A DNA stretch of 39,653 bases from contig RECN01000104.1 of the NCBI GenBank assembly GCA_007694005.1, positions 108,029 to 147,681 of the forward strand, read 5' to 3'. Positions 1 to 8,435 of this stretch are shown here, piece after piece (the stretch's first letter is position 1; each line of letters starts with the position of its first letter). This DNA comes from Spirochaetaceae bacterium (lineage in GTDB: Bacteria > Spirochaetota > Spirochaetia > DSM-27196 > SKKC01). The notes under the pieces are model-generated. The model did no database searches, was not told the DNA's origin, and was given only the letters and a program-made list of their open reading frames with translations. The position numbers and the translations under genes were made by a program.

Positions 1-759
1 CTCGATGATCCTGACGGTGAACTGTTCTTTTCCTTCGAAATAGTTGTAGAAGGTTCCGACACCGAGTCCGATTGCGCTGGTAAGCCGGTAGATATTCATA
101 CCGTGAAAGCCGGTCTTGCCGAGAATATCCTTCCCGCTGTTGACGAGTTTTTCGGGGGTGCTTTCCTGAAGTTTAAGCGGAAGCGGACGGACATCGATAC
201 CGAACACGCGGTCCCAGTCGAGCTCATCCGGTTGGAAGACACCCCGGAGAATAACGTCGAGTACCTGCTCGGGCTCGATTGCAACATCGTGGTAGGTACG
301 TCTGAACGCGGAAAAGCGTATACCCGCCATTACGTATATCAACTCACCCGCGGTCGGAGCCCGTCCGAGCGTGCGGGTCAGATGCTGCTCGTAGAGCTGA
401 TTGATCTTGACCTCGTAGTCGTAATACCGGTACTGGCCCTGCCGGAATATCTGCGTAATCTCCCGCTGTTCCTCCGAAAGCCGGAACACCACGCGACACA
501 GATCCGCGAGACGCTGCTCGGTGGTTGCCCCTGTTACCGAATCGAGCGCCTCGACTAACATATAGTGGTACCGGTTCAGAATTTCGAGGAATATCTCTTC
601 ACGCGAAGAAAAATACCGGTAGTACACGCCATTCGACATACCTGCGGTCCGGCAGATGTCAGCTACCGACACCTGACTGATCCAGTTCCGGCTGAAAAGC
701 TCGATCGCGGCTGAGAGTAGCCGTTCTCGCGTGACCTGTCGTTGCTGTTCACGTCCCAC
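1..759 (-). CDS. Tandem-domain TetR-family transcriptional regulator (3' part missing at window edge)
   Basis: Reading leftward from a GTG at 759, the frame stays open for 253 codons and runs off the left edge. A GAGGG ribosome-binding site lies six bases before the GTG and an in-frame stop lies at 790-792. Residues about 9-60 form a complete TetR N-terminal helix-turn-helix domain, ending in the typical GMSNGVYYRYFSSREEIF pattern. A helical region resembling a ligand or dimer domain follows. Residues about 202-253 form a second TetR DNA-binding domain (AIGLGVGTFYNYFEGKEQF). It is therefore a double-headed TetR protein rather than the usual one-domain form of about 200 residues. It faces the condensing-enzyme/Liv operon and probably represses that operon and itself. 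The fold assignment is strong; the ligand is unknown. Confidence 0.85.
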   Translation of the reverse strand, partial: MGREQQRQVTRERLLSAAIELFSRNWISQVSVADICRTAGMSNGVYYRYFSSREEIFLEILNRYHYMLVEALDSVTGATTEQRLADLCRVVFRLSEEQREITQIFRQGQYRYYDYEVKINQLYEQHLTRTLGRAPTAGELIYVMAGIRFSAFRRTYHDVAIEPEQVLDVILRGVFQPDELDWDRVFGIDVRPLPLKLQESTPEKLVNSGKDILGKTGFHGMNIYRLTSAIGLGVGTFYNYFEGKEQFTVRIIE

Positions 760-773
760 CGTATACCCTCGCG

Positions 774-800
774 ATGAGTGAGAAATGATTCACTCATTCA
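774..800. promoter_or_regulatory. Candidate regulator operator A (tetR-proximal palindrome)
   Basis: ATGAGTGA at 774-781 is the exact reverse complement of TCACTCAT at 790-797. Nested inside is AATGA-N5-TCATT at 784-798. The site lies just downstream of the predicted leftward tetR promoter, where a bound repressor would block transcription. On the minus strand it shares the GTGAATCA core with the site at 912-936. The symmetry is seen; the function is inferred. Confidence 0.55.
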
Positions 801-808
801 ATCGCTGA

Positions 809-837
809 AGTATATCCGCGTCTTTCAGAGGCGTAAA
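809..837 (-). promoter_or_regulatory. Predicted sigma70-type promoter for the tandem TetR gene
   Basis: On the minus strand there is TTTACG (832-837), a 17-base spacer, then TATACT (809-814). The -10 matches five of six consensus bases and the -35 four of six. The start point would fall near 802, at the edge of candidate operator A, which fits autoregulation. Confidence 0.45.
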
Positions 838-872: not shown

Positions 873-901
873 TTGACGGCAGCGATTTTCGGCGTGAGAA
901 T
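873..901 (+). promoter_or_regulatory. Predicted sigma70-type promoter for the condensing-enzyme/Liv operon
   Basis: TTGACG (873-878) is followed after 17 bases by GAGAAT (896-901), which matches four of six -10 bases. Transcription would begin near 908, immediately before candidate operator B. The -10 element is weak, so this is tentative. Confidence 0.4.
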
Positions 902-911
902 GCGTAATAAA

Positions 912-936
912 TGAGAGTTGATTCACCATTCACTCT
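912..936. promoter_or_regulatory. Candidate regulator operator B (operon-proximal)
   Basis: AGAGT (914-918) and ACTCT (932-936) form the outer arms of an inverted repeat. On the minus strand the site contains TGAATG followed by GTGAATCA, nearly the same string as in operator A, which has one extra base, and both continue into CTCA. It lies between the predicted start of transcription and the condensing-enzyme gene, a classical repressor position. Confidence 0.45.
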
Positions 937-963: not shown

Positions 964-1974
964 ATGAACGTTGGAATAATGGGGATGGGCACCTACATAC
1001 CGGAGCACATCATGACCGCGGCGGAAATCGCAGCGAAAACCGACATCCCCGAACACATCATTCAGGAAAAATTCGGTGTTTACCAGAAACCGATACCCGG
1101 TCCTGAAGACACGACCAGTGCAATGGGGAAAAAGGCCGCCTTAAAGGCAATCGAAAACGCCGGGATTAACCCGGGTGAAATCGATCTGGTGATCTGGAAC
1201 GGCGCACAGCACAAGGACTTCCCGTGCTGGCTGGCAGGGCTCGCTATTGCGGAAGAAATCGGCGCGGTAAACGCCTGGAGCTTCGACATGGAGGCCATGT
1301 GCGGCTCAATGATGGCCGCCCTCGACACAGCCAAGTCCATAATGATCGCCAAACCACGAGTGAACACTGTACTTCTCGTCAGCGGGTATCGAAACGGTGA
1401 TCTTATTGACCTGTCGGTGCCGGACACCCGCTTCATGCTCGACCTTGGAGCCGGTGGTGCCGCAGTCGTCCTCCGTAAAAACCTGAATCGCAACCTTGTT
1501 CTGGAAAGCAGCTTCAAGGGTGACGGGTCCTTCGCGCGGGACTGCATCGTTCCGGTACTCGGCACCGAGGCCTGGCCACCAAAGGCGGAAGACATCGGGC
1601 ACGCACACTTTGAGGTGAAAGACTCTGAGGGTTTTAAAAAGAAACTCGGTGAACGCACCCTGCCGAATTTCTACGCGGTTGTCCGTGAAAGCCTCGCCGA
1701 CAGCGGCTATACACAGGAAGACATTGACTATCTCGCGATTCTGCATTTCAAGAAGTCCGCACACGACGCAATTCTTGCTGAACTGGGTCTTTCGGACGAT
1801 CAGACGACCTATCTGAACCAGTACGGTCATCTCGGACAGAACGATCAGGTTCTGTCTCTGGAATTAGGGCTTGAGAGCGGTCGCCTCAAGGACGGAGATA
1901 TAGCCGTCCTTGTCGGAGCCGGTCTTGGATTTGTCTGGGCTTCCACAGTCGTACGCTGGGGAGCAGCACAATAA
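964..1974 (+). CDS. FabH/KAS III-like condensing enzyme (thiolase superfamily)
   Basis: The 336-residue protein has the length and layout of 3-oxoacyl-ACP synthase III. The nucleophile is Cys113 in EAMCGSMM, where E. coli FabH has Cys112. His261 in ILHFKKSAH fits the FabH active-site His. The third triad position, Asn in FabH (YGNTS), is His289 here (YGHLG), giving a Cys-His-His set as in KAS I/II. The C-terminus (GAGLGFVWASTVVRWG) is also FabH-like. It opens an operon with a Liv importer, a FabG-like reductase and a hydrolase, and a TetR regulator faces it, so a specialised acyl condensation or cleavage is more likely than housekeeping fatty-acid initiation. A GGAG at 950-953 is spaced ten bases from the ATG, and the N-terminus MNVGIMGMGTYIP is that expected for the family. 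Confidence 0.85.
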   Translation: MNVGIMGMGTYIPEHIMTAAEIAAKTDIPEHIIQEKFGVYQKPIPGPEDTTSAMGKKAALKAIENAGINPGEIDLVIWNGAQHKDFPCWLAGLAIAEEIGAVNAWSFDMEAMCGSMMAALDTAKSIMIAKPRVNTVLLVSGYRNGDLIDLSVPDTRFMLDLGAGGAAVVLRKNLNRNLVLESSFKGDGSFARDCIVPVLGTEAWPPKAEDIGHAHFEVKDSEGFKKKLGERTLPNFYAVVRESLADSGYTQEDIDYLAILHFKKSAHDAILAELGLSDDQTTYLNQYGHLGQNDQVLSLELGLESGRLKDGDIAVLVGAGLGFVWASTVVRWGAAQ

Positions 1975-2022: not shown

Positions 2023-3234
2023 ATGAAGAAGTCAATGCTTATTGCAGGCTTTCTTACCATTATGATGCTTCTGCCGTTCACCGCCTTCGCTGGTGGAGGT
2101 ACAGAAGCTGCGGTTGAGGACGAGATCCTCATTGGCGGGCTCACATCGCTCAGCGGTGTGTTGATGGATTACGGTCAGCAGATGCAGCGTGGATTCGAGC
2201 TCGGTCTCGAGTATGCCACCGACGGTACCATGCAGGTTGCAGGGCGTTCGATCAGAGTCATCTGGGAAGACACCACCACCGTACCCGAAGTTGCACGCGA
2301 GCGTGCGATCAAGCTGCTCGACGAAGACGGCGTAGATATTGTCGTCGGACCGACTTCATCTGCAGACGCATTCGCAATCCTGCCCCTCTTCGAGGAGTAC
2401 GAGCGGATTCTCGTGATGGAACCGGCGGCAGCAGACTTTCTGACCGGTGAAAACTCCAACCGCTTTGTGTTCCGAACCGGCCGCAACACCGCTCAGGACT
2501 CAAACGCAATGGCAGCGATCATTGTGAACGAGGTTCCCGGAGCCCGCGTCGCCGTATTTGCACCCGAAGGTGCCTTTGGCCGGGGTTATGCCGAGCCCTT
2601 CCGCGCCGCTCTTGAAGCAGACGGTGGCGAAGTCATACTTGAAGAGTTTGCGCCAGCCGACGCGACCGACTTCACTCCGTTTATCACCCGCATTCGCAAC
2701 GCGAACCCCGACTACGTCTTCGTGATCTGGGCCGGTGCGAATAACCCCTGGCGGCAGATGTCCGAGCAGGGCCTGTTCGAAGACTTCCGTGTCTCCACCG
2801 GAGCCCCTGAAATTGCAGCGCTCCGCACCATGCTCGAAATGGAAGGAAACACAGGCTTTACGGTGTATTACCACACCGTCGCACAGAATCCTGTGAATGA
2901 GTGGCTCGTCGAGCAGCACCAGGCGCGGCACAACGCACCACCCGATATCTTCGTCTCCGGCGGTATGGCAGCAGCCATGGCAGTCGTCACCGCTCTTGAA
3001 CAGACAAACGGAAGCGCCGATGCGGAAGCCCTGATTCAGGCGATGCGTGGAATGGAGTTTGACTCCCCGACCGGCATGCGCTACTTCCGCAGCGAAGACC
3101 ATCAGGCACAGCAGTCTCTGTTCGAGATCATGTTCACCCGTGTCGCTGGCGTAGACCACATTGTTCCCGAGCTGATTCGTGTTATTCCTCGCGACGACGT
3201 GTCTGATCCGATTCAGACGACCCATCCCCGCTGA
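2023..3234 (+). CDS. Liv-type ABC transporter substrate-binding protein
   Basis: The 403-residue protein starts with a clear signal peptide (MKKSMLIAGFL...AFA, cleavage near residue 23). There is no lipobox cysteine, so it should be a soluble periplasmic protein. The mature chain starts IGGLTSLSGVLMDYGQQMQRGFEL, split here as IGGLTSLSG and MQRGFELGLEYA, the usual opening of periplasmic-binding fold type I proteins of the LivJ/Peripla_BP_6 group. VDIVVGPTSSADA and DATDFTPFITRIRNANPDY are further family hallmarks. AGGAGG sits six bases before the ATG. It delivers ligand to the LivFGHM proteins encoded next. Liv-type receptors bind branched amino acids, amides, urea or aromatic acids, and the ligand here cannot be read from sequence alone. 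Confidence 0.9.
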   Translation: MKKSMLIAGFLTIMMLLPFTAFAGGGTEAAVEDEILIGGLTSLSGVLMDYGQQMQRGFELGLEYATDGTMQVAGRSIRVIWEDTTTVPEVARERAIKLLDEDGVDIVVGPTSSADAFAILPLFEEYERILVMEPAAADFLTGENSNRFVFRTGRNTAQDSNAMAAIIVNEVPGARVAVFAPEGAFGRGYAEPFRAALEADGGEVILEEFAPADATDFTPFITRIRNANPDYVFVIWAGANNPWRQMSEQGLFEDFRVSTGAPEIAALRTMLEMEGNTGFTVYYHTVAQNPVNEWLVEQHQARHNAPPDIFVSGGMAAAMAVVTALEQTNGSADAEALIQAMRGMEFDSPTGMRYFRSEDHQAQQSLFEIMFTRVAGVDHIVPELIRVIPRDDVSDPIQTTHPR

Positions 3235-3342: not shown

Positions 3343-4113
3343 ATGTCGGACATGATTTTACGAACCGAACACCTGGGGGTGAGCTTTGGTGCTCTCAAGG
3401 CCGTCAATGACGTGAGTCTTGAGATCGAAAAAGGCAAGTTTACCACCATATTAGGACCGAACGGAGCGGGTAAAACCACCTATTTTAATCTCATCAGCGG
3501 TCTCCTGAAGCCGACAACCGGGAAGATCTTCTTCAAGGACGCAGATATCACATCCTACAAGGCTATTGATCGTATCGCGGCCGGCATGGGTCGATCGTTT
3601 CAGCTGACAAACGTATTTCCCATGCTTACCGTGCACGAGAATATTCGCCTCTCTGCGCAATCATACAGCAAGGTCGGTGCACGCCTGTTTCGCAGTCACA
3701 GGCGGTACGATGCGGTAAACAGTAAGACCGATGAGATTCTCGAGCGGGTACTTCTTCCGCACCGTCGAAACGCACTCGCAGCCAGCCTTACCCACGGCGA
3801 ACAGAGAAAACTTGAGCTCGGGATGGTACTCGCACTCGAACCGGAGGTACTGCTGCTCGACGAACCGACGGCAGGCATGGCAATCGAGCAGGTCCCGGTC
3901 ATGATTGACATAATGCGGGACACCCACCAGCGCGGAACCACCGTACTGCTGATCGAACACAAAATGGATCTCGTGAAACAGCTTTCCGACCGGCTCGTAA
4001 TCCTCGTAAACGGAAAAGTCCTGGCAGACGGAAACCCAACCGAGGTTTCACAGAACCCGGAAGTCCTCAAAGCCTATCTCGGGGGAGGAGTATTAGATGC
4101 AACCACTGCTTAA
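3343..4113 (+). CDS. livG: Liv-type ABC transporter ATP-binding protein, LivG-like
   Basis: This 256-residue ABC ATPase has a Walker A at residues 38-45 (GPNGAGKT), a Q-loop around RSFQLTN, an ABC signature variant LTHGEQ at 149-154 and a Walker B ending in Asp173-Glu174 (LLLDEPTAG). The H-loop is in LLIEHKMD. The longer insert before the signature and the C-terminal LKAYLGGG tail are typical of LivG. It pairs with the LivF-like ATPase to drive import at the cytoplasmic membrane. Its 3' end overlaps the next gene by 17 bases, implying translational coupling. Confidence 0.92.
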   Translation: MSDMILRTEHLGVSFGALKAVNDVSLEIEKGKFTTILGPNGAGKTTYFNLISGLLKPTTGKIFFKDADITSYKAIDRIAAGMGRSFQLTNVFPMLTVHENIRLSAQSYSKVGARLFRSHRRYDAVNSKTDEILERVLLPHRRNALAASLTHGEQRKLELGMVLALEPEVLLLDEPTAGMAIEQVPVMIDIMRDTHQRGTTVLLIEHKMDLVKQLSDRLVILVNGKVLADGNPTEVSQNPEVLKAYLGGGVLDATTA

Positions 4114-4801
4114 AGCCGAGAACATAGTCTCGTACATAGGCCCCTACACCATCCTTCACGACGTGAGTCTGGAGGTAACACGGGGCGAGGCAGTCGTCAT
4201 CCTCGGACGCAACGGCGCAGGAAAGACCACCTTCCTCAAGACGATCATGGGCCTCGTTCATACCCGCTCGGGAGTTCTCGAGTTCGACGGTGAGACGCTC
4301 GTGGACAAGGAAACGCATGTCATACAACGGAAAGGAATCGGCTACGTCCCGGAAGATTACGGTATTTTCGATCTTCTGACCGTAGAGGAAAACATGCGTA
4401 TTGCCATGTGGAAGGAAGACCCCGAAACAAAAGAGCGCTGTGACTGGGTACTCGACCTCTTTCCCGACCTCAAACTCGCGTACAAGCGATTTGCAAAAAC
4501 GTTAAGCGGCGGTCAGCGACAGATGCTTTCGGTCGGCAGAGCGCTCGTAAACAATAATCGCATTCTGCTCGTTGACGAACCGAGTAAGGGGCTTGCGCCG
4601 GTCATTATCGAAACGCTCGCAGGAGCTCTCAAGGAGATAAGCAAAACAACAACGGTACTGCTTGTGGAACAGAACTTCGCGATGGCCTGTGCCGTCGGTC
4701 AGCGTTTCTACATTATCAACGAGGGCAAGACGGTTGAATCCGGCACTATGGCGGATCTCATTCAAAACAAAGAACTCCAGGCCGTTCACCTGGGCATCTG
4801 A
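4097..4801 (+). CDS. livF: Liv-type ABC transporter ATP-binding protein, LivF-like
   Basis: The 234-residue ATPase has a Walker A at 37-44 (GRNGAGKT), a canonical signature LSGGQ at 136-140 and a Walker B with Asp160-Glu161 (ILLVDEPSKGL). GYVPEDYGIF matches the LivF region GYVPEGR in type. The length and C-terminus (LQAVHLGI) fit LivF. The start lies inside the livG reading frame, with GGGGGAGG at 4081-4088 serving as ribosome-binding site. It should form a heterodimer with LivG. Confidence 0.92.
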   Translation: MQPLLKAENIVSYIGPYTILHDVSLEVTRGEAVVILGRNGAGKTTFLKTIMGLVHTRSGVLEFDGETLVDKETHVIQRKGIGYVPEDYGIFDLLTVEENMRIAMWKEDPETKERCDWVLDLFPDLKLAYKRFAKTLSGGQRQMLSVGRALVNNNRILLVDEPSKGLAPVIIETLAGALKEISKTTTVLLVEQNFAMACAVGQRFYIINEGKTVESGTMADLIQNKELQAVHLGI

Positions 4802-4820: not shown

Positions 4821-5816
4821 GTGGGTACAATCGTAACGTTAGTCGTCAACGGCCTGGCGCAGGGAGCCTTGATCTTCCTCATGGCGTCCGGTCTTTCAAT
4901 CATTCTTGGCATGATGGGAGTCATAAACTTCGCACATGGAACACTGTTTCTGTGGGGCGGTTACATGTACGTCTGGTCGTACTATGCGATACGGCTCAGG
5001 GTCGTCATGGCGTGGTTTGAAGCAGCAGTTCCCGTAACCAGATTCGGAAACATCCTGACCATTCAGGGCGTGCAGCTGCCACCGGGTGAAACCCTGCCCT
5101 TTCTGGCAGAACTTGCAATCTTTGTTGCGGCCCTTGTTATCGCCGTGGGCTTTGTGTTTGTCATGGGCCTCGTATTCGAGAAGCTCTTTATAAACCGTGT
5201 CTACGGACGGGTACCGGCACAGATTCTGATTACCCTGGGTATTCAGGTCGTGTTTACCGACATTGTCCGTGTGATCTGGGGACCGAACCCCTTCCCCATC
5301 GACCGACCACCCTTTCTCAACGGTGTTTCGACGATCGGTACGGCCCGTATCGTCCACTACAACGTGTTTCTTATTCTGGTTGGTCTGGTGATCGCAGTGA
5401 TCATACATCGCATTCTGACGAAGTCCCGCATCGGCATGGTCATCCGCGCCGGCCTGCAGAGCCCCGATCACGTGAGGGCGATCGGAATCAATATCAAACG
5501 CTACTTCACGATCGTATTCGCCGCCGGAGCGGCCCTCGCAGGACTCGGAGGAGCTCTCTACATGCCGCTCGTAGGTAACGTTGTCTCGACTGCCGGTATG
5601 AGTAACCAGATTCTCGCGTTCATCGTCGTTGTTGTCGGCGGACTCGGAAGCTTCATGGGTTCGTTTCTGGGAAGCATTTTCCTTGGCCTCATGGGCGTCG
5701 GGATCGCCATGACCGTTCCGGGACTTTCGGTCGTCGCAAACGTCCTGATCATGGCACTCGTACTCATGTTCCGACCGAACGGACTGTTTGGTCTGGCCGT
5801 CTCACGGGCCGACTGA
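4821..5816 (+). CDS. livH: Liv-type ABC transporter permease, LivH-like
   Basis: The frame is open farther upstream, but that part overlaps livF and is not membrane-like. The GTG at 4821 is chosen because GGAGG (4810-4814) lies six bases before it and the protein then begins VGTIVTLVVNGLAQGALIFL, split here as TIVTLVVNG and LAQGALIFL, the normal LivH start. The 331-residue protein is mostly transmembrane helix. MGVINFAHGTLF near the N-terminus is the LivH signature and AGAALAGLGGALY is the cytoplasmic coupling region that contacts the ATPases. A 44-residue hydrophilic insert between the first helices contains the segment RFGNILTIQGVQLPPGE. Confidence 0.9.
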   Translation: MGTIVTLVVNGLAQGALIFLMASGLSIILGMMGVINFAHGTLFLWGGYMYVWSYYAIRLRVVMAWFEAAVPVTRFGNILTIQGVQLPPGETLPFLAELAIFVAALVIAVGFVFVMGLVFEKLFINRVYGRVPAQILITLGIQVVFTDIVRVIWGPNPFPIDRPPFLNGVSTIGTARIVHYNVFLILVGLVIAVIIHRILTKSRIGMVIRAGLQSPDHVRAIGINIKRYFTIVFAAGAALAGLGGALYMPLVGNVVSTAGMSNQILAFIVVVVGGLGSFMGSFLGSIFLGLMGVGIAMTVPGLSVVANVLIMALVLMFRPNGLFGLAVSRAD

Positions 5817-5829
5817 GGAGAATCGCTCT

Positions 5830-6873
5830 ATGGGATCAAACGTACGTCTTTCTTTCGACAAAAAACCCGAGTTGCCGAAACTCATCGCGCTCGCAGCTCT
5901 CATTACCGTTTTTCTCGTGATTCCACAGTTCATGAGAAACACACAGCTCATCATGATGAGCCGAATATTTATTCTCGCGGTCTATGGAATGAGCTATGAC
6001 ATCCTTCGCGGGTACACAGGCTTCATTAACCTCGGCCAGGCGATCTTCTTCGGCAGTGGCGTCTATATGGGAGTAATCTTCCTCAACATGCAGAACGATC
6101 TCTGGTTTTTCATGATGGCGGCCGGATCGATCTTCGTTGCCTCGGTCATCGGTGGCTACGTAATGAGTAAGATCGTACTCCGTACCGGTGGCGTCGTCGC
6201 CGCCGCAATGGTCACGCTCGCCCTTGGGGAAATCGTGCGAAATATCGCCGAGCGCTGGCGAACCGTTACCGGTGGCCAGGATGGTCTGCCTCTGCGATTC
6301 TCCCGGGTTGCGCTTGAACCTCTGTTCACGACCCGGCTCGGGGCATACTACTTCGCGTTCGTCTTTCTCATCGTCATGACCTTCGCCCTGCGCGCGTTCG
6401 TCCTCAGCCCGACAGGGCGGGTCCTTCAGGCGATACGCGAGAACGAACAGCGAGCGCGATTTCTCGGCTACGATACGCAGAAGTACAAGACGATTGCACT
6501 TATTGTGTCCTCGGTCGCCGCGGGCTTTTCCGGCCTGGTCTTCGCTGTCATCGTACGCTTTGCCAACACCGACTACCTGAGCATTACCTACACGCTGAAT
6601 GCGCTGCTTATTACGCTGGTCGGAGGCACAGGGACTCTGTACGGGTCCATCCTCGGAAGCGCATTCGTGACGTGGATACAGAACTTCCTGCTCGATCTTA
6701 ATCGCAGCCTGGGCTGGGATATCCTCCGATATCCGATGCTCTTTGTCGGATCACTTTATATTCTGCTCGTTATTTTCATGCCGGCAGGGCTGCTCGGAGG
6801 ATTCTTTCAACTGAAGAACTGGTGGGACAGAAAACGGCTGTCCCGTGCGACAGACAATACACCCGAAGCCTGA
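5830..6873 (+). CDS. livM: Liv-type ABC transporter permease, LivM-like
   Basis: The ATG at 5830 is preceded by GAGGAG at 5816-5821, and the upstream in-frame extension would only overlap livH. The 347-residue integral membrane protein has the LivM signature GYTGFINLGQAIFFGSG. Further along are the coupling-region pattern IRENEQRARFLGYDTQKYK and the segment LVGGTGTLYGSILGSAF. It forms the translocation pore with LivH. A basic cytoplasmic tail (NWWDRKRLSR) ends the protein. The gene sits 27 bases before the reductase gene, with no terminator between, so importer and enzymes are probably co-transcribed. Confidence 0.9.
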   Translation: MGSNVRLSFDKKPELPKLIALAALITVFLVIPQFMRNTQLIMMSRIFILAVYGMSYDILRGYTGFINLGQAIFFGSGVYMGVIFLNMQNDLWFFMMAAGSIFVASVIGGYVMSKIVLRTGGVVAAAMVTLALGEIVRNIAERWRTVTGGQDGLPLRFSRVALEPLFTTRLGAYYFAFVFLIVMTFALRAFVLSPTGRVLQAIRENEQRARFLGYDTQKYKTIALIVSSVAAGFSGLVFAVIVRFANTDYLSITYTLNALLITLVGGTGTLYGSILGSAFVTWIQNFLLDLNRSLGWDILRYPMLFVGSLYILLVIFMPAGLLGGFFQLKNWWDRKRLSRATDNTPEA

Positions 6874-6900
6874 ACAGGCGAACAAAAAGGAGTTATGGAC

Positions 6901-7629
6901 ATGGTAAACGGAAAAGTATGTGTGGTAACCGGCGGTGGCCGCGGAATCGGTAAAACGATAGTCGAAACCCTGGCTGCAAACGGCGCTGAGGCTGTCTACG
7001 CACTCGATATCAACAACGATGCCCTCTCGGCGCTCTCCGGAGATGCTGTTCACGGTGAAGTTGTGAACGTACTCGACAGCGAGAGCATTAAAACTGTGGT
7101 AGAGAAAATCATAGACGCACACGGCCGCATCGACATCCTCGTGAACAATGCCGGCATAACGAGGGACGCCGTCATCAACAAGATGGATGATGAGGCCTGG
7201 CAGGCGGTCATAGACGTGAACCTCAAAGGCGTATTTCTCATGACCCGTGAAATCGGCCCCCGCATGATGGAACACGGCTCGGGCTCAATCGTAAACATAT
7301 CATCCGTTGTCGGACTCGACGGAAACATGGGCCAGACCAACTACGCTGCAACCAAAGCCGGTGTCATTGCCATGGCGAAGACCTGGGCGAAGGAGTTTGC
7401 CCGTAAGGGAGCCGCGGTTCGTGCGAACGCGGTCGCACCCGGGTTCATCAATACACCTATGCTGGAAACGGTTCCCGAGAAGGTCATAGAGGGCATCAAG
7501 GCCAAAACTCCTCTGAAACGACTCGGCGAACCACAGGAGATCGCAAACCTCGTGCTCTTCCTCTCGAGTGATCTCGCTTCTTATATTACCGGTCAGGTAA
7601 TCCGCTGTGACGGCGGACTCGTCGTTTAG
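6901..7629 (+). CDS. FabG-like short-chain dehydrogenase/reductase
   Basis: This classical SDR of 242 residues has the cofactor loop TGGGRGIG at 10-17, NNAG at 82-85 and the catalytic set Asn107, Ser135, Tyr148 and Lys152 (YAATK). The C-terminus ITGQVIRCDGGLVV is typical of FabG and acetoacetyl-CoA reductases, which reduce or oxidise a 3-oxo/3-hydroxy acyl thioester. An ATG at 6895 also exists, but AGGAG at 6888-6892 is only two bases from it and eight from the ATG at 6901, so the latter is preferred. Asp37 after the second strand (YALDINN) suggests NAD rather than NADP. It could act on the product of the condensing enzyme in the same operon. Confidence 0.88.
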   Translation: MVNGKVCVVTGGGRGIGKTIVETLAANGAEAVYALDINNDALSALSGDAVHGEVVNVLDSESIKTVVEKIIDAHGRIDILVNNAGITRDAVINKMDDEAWQAVIDVNLKGVFLMTREIGPRMMEHGSGSIVNISSVVGLDGNMGQTNYAATKAGVIAMAKTWAKEFARKGAAVRANAVAPGFINTPMLETVPEKVIEGIKAKTPLKRLGEPQEIANLVLFLSSDLASYITGQVIRCDGGLVV

Positions 7630-7661: not shown

Positions 7662-8435
7662 ATGGAAACAAAGTCAGTATCAGTCCGAGGAATAAGGATC
7701 TCGTATCGTGAGGAAGGTTCTGGAGCACAGGACGTACTCTACGTACACGGAAACACCGGGTGTAATCTGTGGTTCGAGAAGGTCATGTCTCAGGAAGGTT
7801 GCAGGGTGATCGCAGCAGACATGCCAAACTTCGGTGAGTCCGACCACATAGATACAGCCGACATCGATCTGTATGCGGACTACATGGCCGAATTCTGTGC
7901 GGCCCTCGAGCTCGAGAACCCGGTCGTGGTCGGTCACTCCCTCGGTGGAGGTGTCGCTATGAGCCTGGCTGTGAACCACCCCGCACACGTCGGTTCGCTC
8001 ATGCTCGTCGACAGTTGTGCTCCGGGTGGTTTACACACGCCCGAGGAACACTACCCTGTCATAGAAATGTTTCGCACAAACCGGGACCTGCTTCTGCAGG
8101 GGCTTGCAGCAACGACGCCTACTCTGAATGAGCCCGAATTTCTCGACCGCCTCGTCGACGCGGGTATGAAAATGAACGGCATCGCGTTTGCCGGAAACGC
8201 CCGTGCGCTTGATGCGTTTACGGTCGAGGGCAAGACCGCCTCGTTTACCGGACCAGTGCTCGTCGTCCATGGTGCGCGTGATATCATTATCACAAGAGAG
8301 ATGGCGCAGGAGACCGCAGACGCATTTCCGAACGGAACTGCCGCGTTCCTCGAAGACGTCGGTCACAGCGTCATGGTCGAAGATCCGGACACGTTTACGC
8401 GCCTGTTGCAGGAGTTCAGAACGAAAAACACCTGA
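7662..8435 (+). CDS. Alpha/beta-fold hydrolase
   Basis: The 257-residue protein shows the complete alpha/beta hydrolase triad: Ser93 in the nucleophile elbow GHSLGG (91-96), Asp207 in VHGARD and His235 in DVGHSV. The oxyanion HGN motif is at 29-31 and a cap region of about 60 residues follows strand 6. A strong AGGGGAGG (7648-7655) lies six bases before the ATG. There is no signal peptide, so it is cytoplasmic. In this operon it could release or cleave an ester, thioester or 1,3-diketone, but the family is too broad to name a substrate. It is the last gene of the operon and stops nine bases before the convergent RCC1 gene. Confidence 0.88.
   Translation: METKSVSVRGIRISYREEGSGAQDVLYVHGNTGCNLWFEKVMSQEGCRVIAADMPNFGESDHIDTADIDLYADYMAEFCAALELENPVVVGHSLGGGVAMSLAVNHPAHVGSLMLVDSCAPGGLHTPEEHYPVIEMFRTNRDLLLQGLAATTPTLNEPEFLDRLVDAGMKMNGIAFAGNARALDAFTVEGKTASFTGPVLVVHGARDIIITREMAQETADAFPNGTAAFLEDVGHSVMVEDPDTFTRLLQEFRTKNT

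Follow-up and report, generated by a model that had tools for sequence, protein, structure and literature searches.

One leftward reading frame at the left edge of the window, a stretch of 39,653 nucleotides from a Spirochaetaceae bacterium (G000:C114:108029-147681), appears to carry a TetR helix-turn-helix (HTH) twice, the second one cut by the edge. The locus raises the questions of whether a single polypeptide contains two TetR units, what DNA such a chain would read, and which genes it would control.

Two TetR units in one polypeptide

The sequence to the left of the window completes the gene and upholds the proposal, made from the window sequence alone, of one chain with a second TetR HTH. 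The gene begins with GTG at position 759 and stops 378 bases to the left of base 1, forming an uninterrupted ORF of 378 residues with no internal stop or frameshift beyond the edge (locus L003:7652-8788). In a Pfam search of the bacterium's own genome, TetR_N (PF00440) matched this ORF twice rather than once, and both matches exceed the cut-off of 24 bits, placing the protein in the TetR/AcrR family. The parts of the gene within the window are:

1-759, minus strand: tandem TetR gene, first 253 of 378 codons, with 378 further bases to the left of the window
580-720, minus strand: first TetR_N HTH, residues 14-60, in the N-type domain (45.7 bits)
19-132, minus strand: second TetR_N HTH, about residues 210-247, in the C-type (SaFadR-like) domain (27.0 bits)

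The second TetR is not a stray HTH. It is a whole domain (residues ~198 to 378) with its own ligand-binding part, which is encoded to the left of the window, and the structural model described below contains two full helical units. The protein has the two complete TetR units that characterize double TFR repressors, and this architecture is certain. Chance or an assembly artefact was considered as a source of the tandem layout and ruled out, because the layout recurs in a congener (G001, 97% identical), in a paralogue that the genome also encodes (L002/L049, 418 residues, 45% identity over 370 residues, full length), in about 70 further full-length homologues, and in isolates.

Named genomes yielded 79 loci when scanned, and separate searches with N-half and C-half profiles found both halves, in that order, in the ~70 proteins. 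Full-length tandem homologues are present in Spirochaetota, Acidobacteriota (Holophagaceae and others), Thermotogota bins, and Fusobacteriota; the isolates that carry one are Geothrix fermentans, Rectinema subterraneum, and Cetobacterium somerae, a member of the Fusobacteriota in which the gene lies on a plasmid (N half 155 bits, C half 110 bits). Eight matches, from Marinobacter and Trueperaceae, are single TetRs similar to the C half (discussed later). The genome under study also encodes a third double TetR of 427 residues (L163:6408-7691, at about 53407-54690 of G000:C162; TetR_N at 37.9 and 50.0 bits), which is unrelated to the acyl-CoA-type tandem family and heads a TolC/membrane-fusion/RND efflux operon. 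This lineage may hold more double TFRs than has been supposed.

Relationship to Mce3R

Double TetR repressors were already known, and the idea of a double-headed chain has a precedent. The precedent is Mce3R of M. tuberculosis (Rv1963c, PDB 9b7y), a characterised double TFR and the only characterised double or tandem TetR protein found in literature searches. Cryo-EM showed that its two halves pack as one asymmetric TetR-like body, which reads a non-palindromic 25-bp operator that occurs twice in a divergent gap (PMC11667970). A homodimer of chains is also formed, and the bridging of operators by two chains has been proposed, not demonstrated; 204 putative doubles were predicted in actinomycetes (PMC11667970).

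An AlphaFold2 model of the tandem TetR, built with 14 homologues, has a mean pLDDT of 91.1 and a pTM of 0.86. Among solved structures, the top match by far is Mce3R (9b7y) over residues 1 to 376, with a VIA Z of 22.8, 343 aligned residues, and an rmsd of 5.9 Å over the whole chain; the next entry reaches a Z of 15.1 and covers one half. Foldseek agrees on Mce3R. Given the rmsd of 5.9 Å, the relative placement of the halves in the model may differ from that in Mce3R or be uncertain.

Like Mce3R and the actinobacterial double TFRs, the protein combines two TetR units and two unlike HTHs in one chain, and shares with them an asymmetric operator with two copies in a divergent gap, a lipid-type regulon, and, as predicted here, autoregulation. 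The operator sequence and the regulon are different, however, and sequence kinship is seen only at the general level of the TetR HTH. The doubles of the Mce3R type are from actinomycetes, whereas this family is found in the four phyla named above, and the gene is associated with KAS III, LIV transporter, SDR, and hydrolase genes rather than adjoining or controlling an mce operon. In a tree of halves (~190 columns, with deep branches that are not secure) that included the Rhodococcus double TFRs found via Mce3R, the Mce3R-like halves M1 and M2 form their own clade (0.963), apart from both halves of the tandem family, neither of which groups with them. The N halves are a clade at 0.996 and the C halves at 1.0; the C halves, the single TetRs, and SaFadR together form a clade at 0.95. 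An earlier tree had placed M2 inside the C clade using only a 61-residue fragment of M2, a placement that was gone once full Rhodococcus halves were used. Judged by sequence, the tandem family is separate from Mce3R and not its orthologue, and the straightforward reading would be that the fusion arose independently.

A predicted directional 21-bp operator

The gap between the tandem TetR gene and the divergent KAS gene (759-964) contains these predicted sites:

779-799, plus strand: operator 1, TGAGAAATGATTCACTCATTC, 22.4 bits, just downstream of the regulator's promoter-like site
912-932, plus strand: operator 2, TGAGAGTTGATTCACCATTCA, 29.2 bits, 10 bp downstream of the KAS operon's promoter-like site and in the same orientation as operator 1
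809-837, minus strand: promoter-like site of the regulator, TTTACG-17-TATACT, a consensus match only
873-901, plus strand: promoter-like site of the KAS operon, TTGACG-17-GAGAAT, a consensus match only

The operators were defined by a motif search (EM, own script) of 67 non-redundant upstream regions. One motif is dominant, with a log-likelihood of 671 versus 100 in shuffled regions at a width of 23. It is a strongly asymmetric 21-bp unit, TGAGAgnTGATTCa-N4-Tya, whose strong left half, TGAGAgnTGA, is near-invariant; the weak right half, TrAnnnnTGA when read from its own side, is looser, with its outer TyA and inner TCA conserved. Of 49 divergent KAS-regulator gaps, 48 contain the motif, most of them in two copies 108 to 305 bp apart (539 bp in one pair). 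All 85 sites in divergent gaps have the same orientation when both strands are scored with the matrix, which was learned from the same regions with each site's strand chosen freely. Asymmetry amounts to 14.7 bits per site, versus 3.9 under a symmetric model with free strand choice (maximum 4.8 in 60 simulations). Simple palindromic operators were rejected for the tandem family by this simulation. In 1.08 Mb of sequence from the loci, scores of 15 bits or more are reached by 157 sites, and by none once the sequence is reversed, a descriptive figure because the matrix was partly trained there. A loose pattern for the left core gives 87 versus 16 sites by orientation, with all sites pointing one way in 23 of 36 regions; the difference from the matrix result is attributed to sites whose centre also matches the other strand, because matrix scoring of both strands gave 85 to 0. 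The 21-bp operator is very likely real, and, as far as sequence can indicate, it is asymmetric, like those of double TFR repressors.

These results bear on what had been supposed of the gap. Two operator-like sites had been placed between 770 and 940, and both are recovered, as asymmetric direct repeats and not as palindromes. The suggestion that a monomer could read two half-sites, most likely as an internal pseudo-dimer, agrees with a 21-bp unit made of two related but unequal half-sites and with the Mce3R-like fold. The suggestion that a single chain bridges both operators finds no support: bridging would need two chains, because each operator already holds both half-sites.

The operator is not uniform across all relatives. 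On the Cetobacterium somerae plasmid, its left half (TGAGAACTGATTC) is found at L181:4175-4195, in the gap before the CoA-transferase/tandem TetR operon, and a similar TGAGAACCAATTC lies further on, with a degenerate right half. In the flanking DNA examined for the divergent homologues L042-L045 and L051, no such operator was detected. One locus has two tandem-TetR genes flanking a KAS2 gene (L105:9965-13446 and L106:276-3714); the present matrix found no operator directly upstream of these genes. Covariation analysis did not assign the strong half to either HTH, given too much shared ancestry.

Unfused relatives and a symmetric operator

The single TetRs are uncharacterised proteins of the C type with the same kind of neighbors as the tandem genes. 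Those of Trueperaceae (L130, L142-L160) precede KAS, AMP-ligase, hydrolase, and LIV genes, and that of Marinobacter (L122) adjoins LIV and acyl-CoA genes. Unlike the tandem proteins, they have one TetR unit, and the Trueperaceae operator is a palindrome, TGACnnCTGAWTCAGnnGTCA, found in 14 of 17 single-TetR loci at 58 to 100 bp upstream of the matched coding part. The centre, TGA-W-TCA, is common to this palindrome and the tandem operator. Among the free outer and inner bases, paired positions are complementary in about 0.8 to 1.0 of cases in the singles (0.22 for two unspecific pairs), versus 0.4 to 0.6 for most free pairs in the tandem family. The symmetric operator accompanies a single kind of HTH and the asymmetric one a pair of unlike HTHs, a correspondence that, as the Trueperaceae are closely related, represents few independent events.

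The C half and its probable ligand

SaFadR of Sulfolobus acidocaldarius (PDB 6el2, 6en8) is a repressor of a lipid and β-oxidation cluster that is released by acyl-CoA, and the mutants R73A and R86A confirmed that these two residues matter for the response to ligand (PMC6449355). In a profile search with the C half, SaFadR (6el2) is the leading match by a wide margin (E value 7.5e-35), and the C half of the model superimposes on it with an rmsd of 2.0 Å over 176 residues. In the alignment, Arg73 corresponds to R260 (invariant), Arg86 to R273 (conserved), and Phe97 to F284 (invariant), whereas Arg132 and Lys77 are replaced by Gly320 and Ser264; half of the basic residues that contact CoA are retained. 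The two proteins are also alike in their acyl-CoA or β-oxidation-type gene clusters. SaFadR, however, is a 196-residue homodimer that reads semi-palindromes, whereas the C half is joined to another TetR unit of a different kind. Because of the relationship to SaFadR and the retention of R260 and R273, an acyl-CoA is a plausible inducer, with support that is partial given the loss of Arg132 and Lys77.

Neighboring genes and the predicted regulon

The genes divergent from the regulator are:

964-1974, plus strand: KAS III-like 3-oxoacyl-ACP synthase (PRK06840/NF005308)
2023-3234, plus strand: periplasmic binding protein of a LIV-type transporter (Peripla_BP_6)
3343-4801, plus strand: LivG- and LivF-type ATPases (3343-4113 and 4097-4801), assigned by sequence, conserved neighbourhood
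4821-6873, plus strand: LivH- and LivM-type permeases, assigned by sequence
6895-7629, plus strand: FabG/PhaB-type short-chain dehydrogenase (SDR)
7662-8435, plus strand: alpha/beta hydrolase

The set of KAS, KAS2, SDR, hydrolase, and LIV genes recurs in dozens of loci, often with a KAS2-like gene directly after the regulator. LIV-type genes are near in most loci, and a CoA-transferase is present in many. The Cetobacterium regulator lies in an operon for a CoA-transferase, thiolase, reductase, MaoC, acyl-CoA dehydrogenase, and ETF. Of the canonical FabH residues, the KAS III-like protein keeps Cys and His and has His in place of Asn, and KAS2 (L002:80-1081) keeps only Cys; it is possible that the two form a hetero-oligomer of unusual thiolase-fold enzymes. 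In one locus, a LivM-type permease and an alpha/beta hydrolase are fused in a single ORF (L055:2360-4411; Pfam BPD_transp_2 and Abhydrolase_1), and similar long ORFs are present in the same operon of L054, L074, L097, L099, L100, L104, and L108.

Within the genome under study, five sites have high scores across the full 21 bases: two in the regulator-KAS gap, two at the paralogue's promoter, where the pair is inverted rather than direct, and one before a FabI-MaoC operon. With a 13-base core, 11 sites were found where about 7 would be expected by chance, and only the five strong 21-base sites were retained. The FabI-MaoC operon (L164:5924-8111, G000:C42) encodes a FabI-like enoyl reductase and three tandem MaoC-like hydratases behind its strong operator, and this site is conserved in the congener. 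It is probably a remote part of the regulon. In Geothrix, a PhaB-like reductase gene and a thiolase-like gene follow a remote site.

A model for repression and its alternatives

The reading favored here, at a probability of roughly 0.75, is that the protein is an asymmetric, single-chain repressor of the TetR type whose two unlike HTHs bind one 21-bp operator, which represses itself and acyl-CoA-pathway genes, and which is probably released by acyl-CoA. Joined head to tail, its two different TetR units would pack together within one chain as the subunits of a TetR homodimer do. DNA binding is predicted, and repression is likely. About 10 bp separate each operator from the promoter-like site that, read on its own strand, precedes it; this is where a repressor of the operon and of its own gene would be expected to bind. 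Although these promoter-like sites are weak (two found versus 0.5 expected), their position is the reason for proposing that the protein would repress both its own gene and the KAS III/LIV transporter/SDR/hydrolase operon. The paralogue, with its second KAS, and the FabI-MaoC operon would make up the rest of the regulon through the same operator. An acyl-CoA made or used by the pathway would then probably bind the SaFadR-like C half and release the DNA.

Tandem domain order alone would also allow two chains to dimerise by pairing like halves, N with N and C with C, yielding two symmetric TetR dimers for two different palindromes. Such an arrangement was once considered for Mce3R, which does form a homodimer of chains as well (PMC11667970). 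Here, though, the motif is a single asymmetric one rather than two palindromes, and the model matches the intrachain arrangement of Mce3R over the whole chain, making this arrangement quite improbable.

Alternatively, only one head may bind DNA, with the other half a degenerate bundle partner and the weak half-site tolerated rather than read. The contrast between a near-invariant left half-site and a loose right one would fit this, as would the lower TetR_N score of the C-half HTH (27.0 versus 45.7 bits), but both HTHs contain residues that are invariant across the family, and conservation of the right half-site at its outer TyA and inner TCA also argues against it; a single working head is considered unlikely. 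Somewhat less easily set aside, but still doubtful, is the idea that the protein is an activator or senses some other ligand, such as an acid imported by the LIV-type transporter. The ligand class comes from homology only, the pocket motif of the tandem family, YxIVREAEF, is absent from SaFadR, and the transporter genes are near in most loci. Nevertheless, operators downstream of promoter-like -10 boxes are repressor-like, the C half falls in the SaFadR clade (0.95), and the predicted regulon is one of acyl-CoA chemistry.

Origin and significance of the fusion

Because the unfused relatives use a palindromic version of the operator, the fusion appears to have converted a symmetric homodimer to a pseudo-heterodimer made of one chain, whose operator has a direction. 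A fuller account is offered tentatively, at somewhat under even odds: a SaFadR-like homodimer that read palindromes was fused with a second TetR, independently of Mce3R, and gave one-chain repressors whose operator polarity is used, in that the same-way direct repeats in divergent gaps would let binding or chain-chain contacts tell the two promoters apart.

Beside Mce3R, the family would be another natural example of single-chain TetR repressors, one that apparently arose independently. The operator matrix is ready for use, and with it comes a predicted regulon of an acyl-CoA pathway in several phyla that have been little studied. Unlike Mce3R, this family has living unfused relatives in the same kind of operon with a symmetric version of the same operator, and thus, what is gained by fusing a dimer, asymmetric and directional operators, becomes directly testable.
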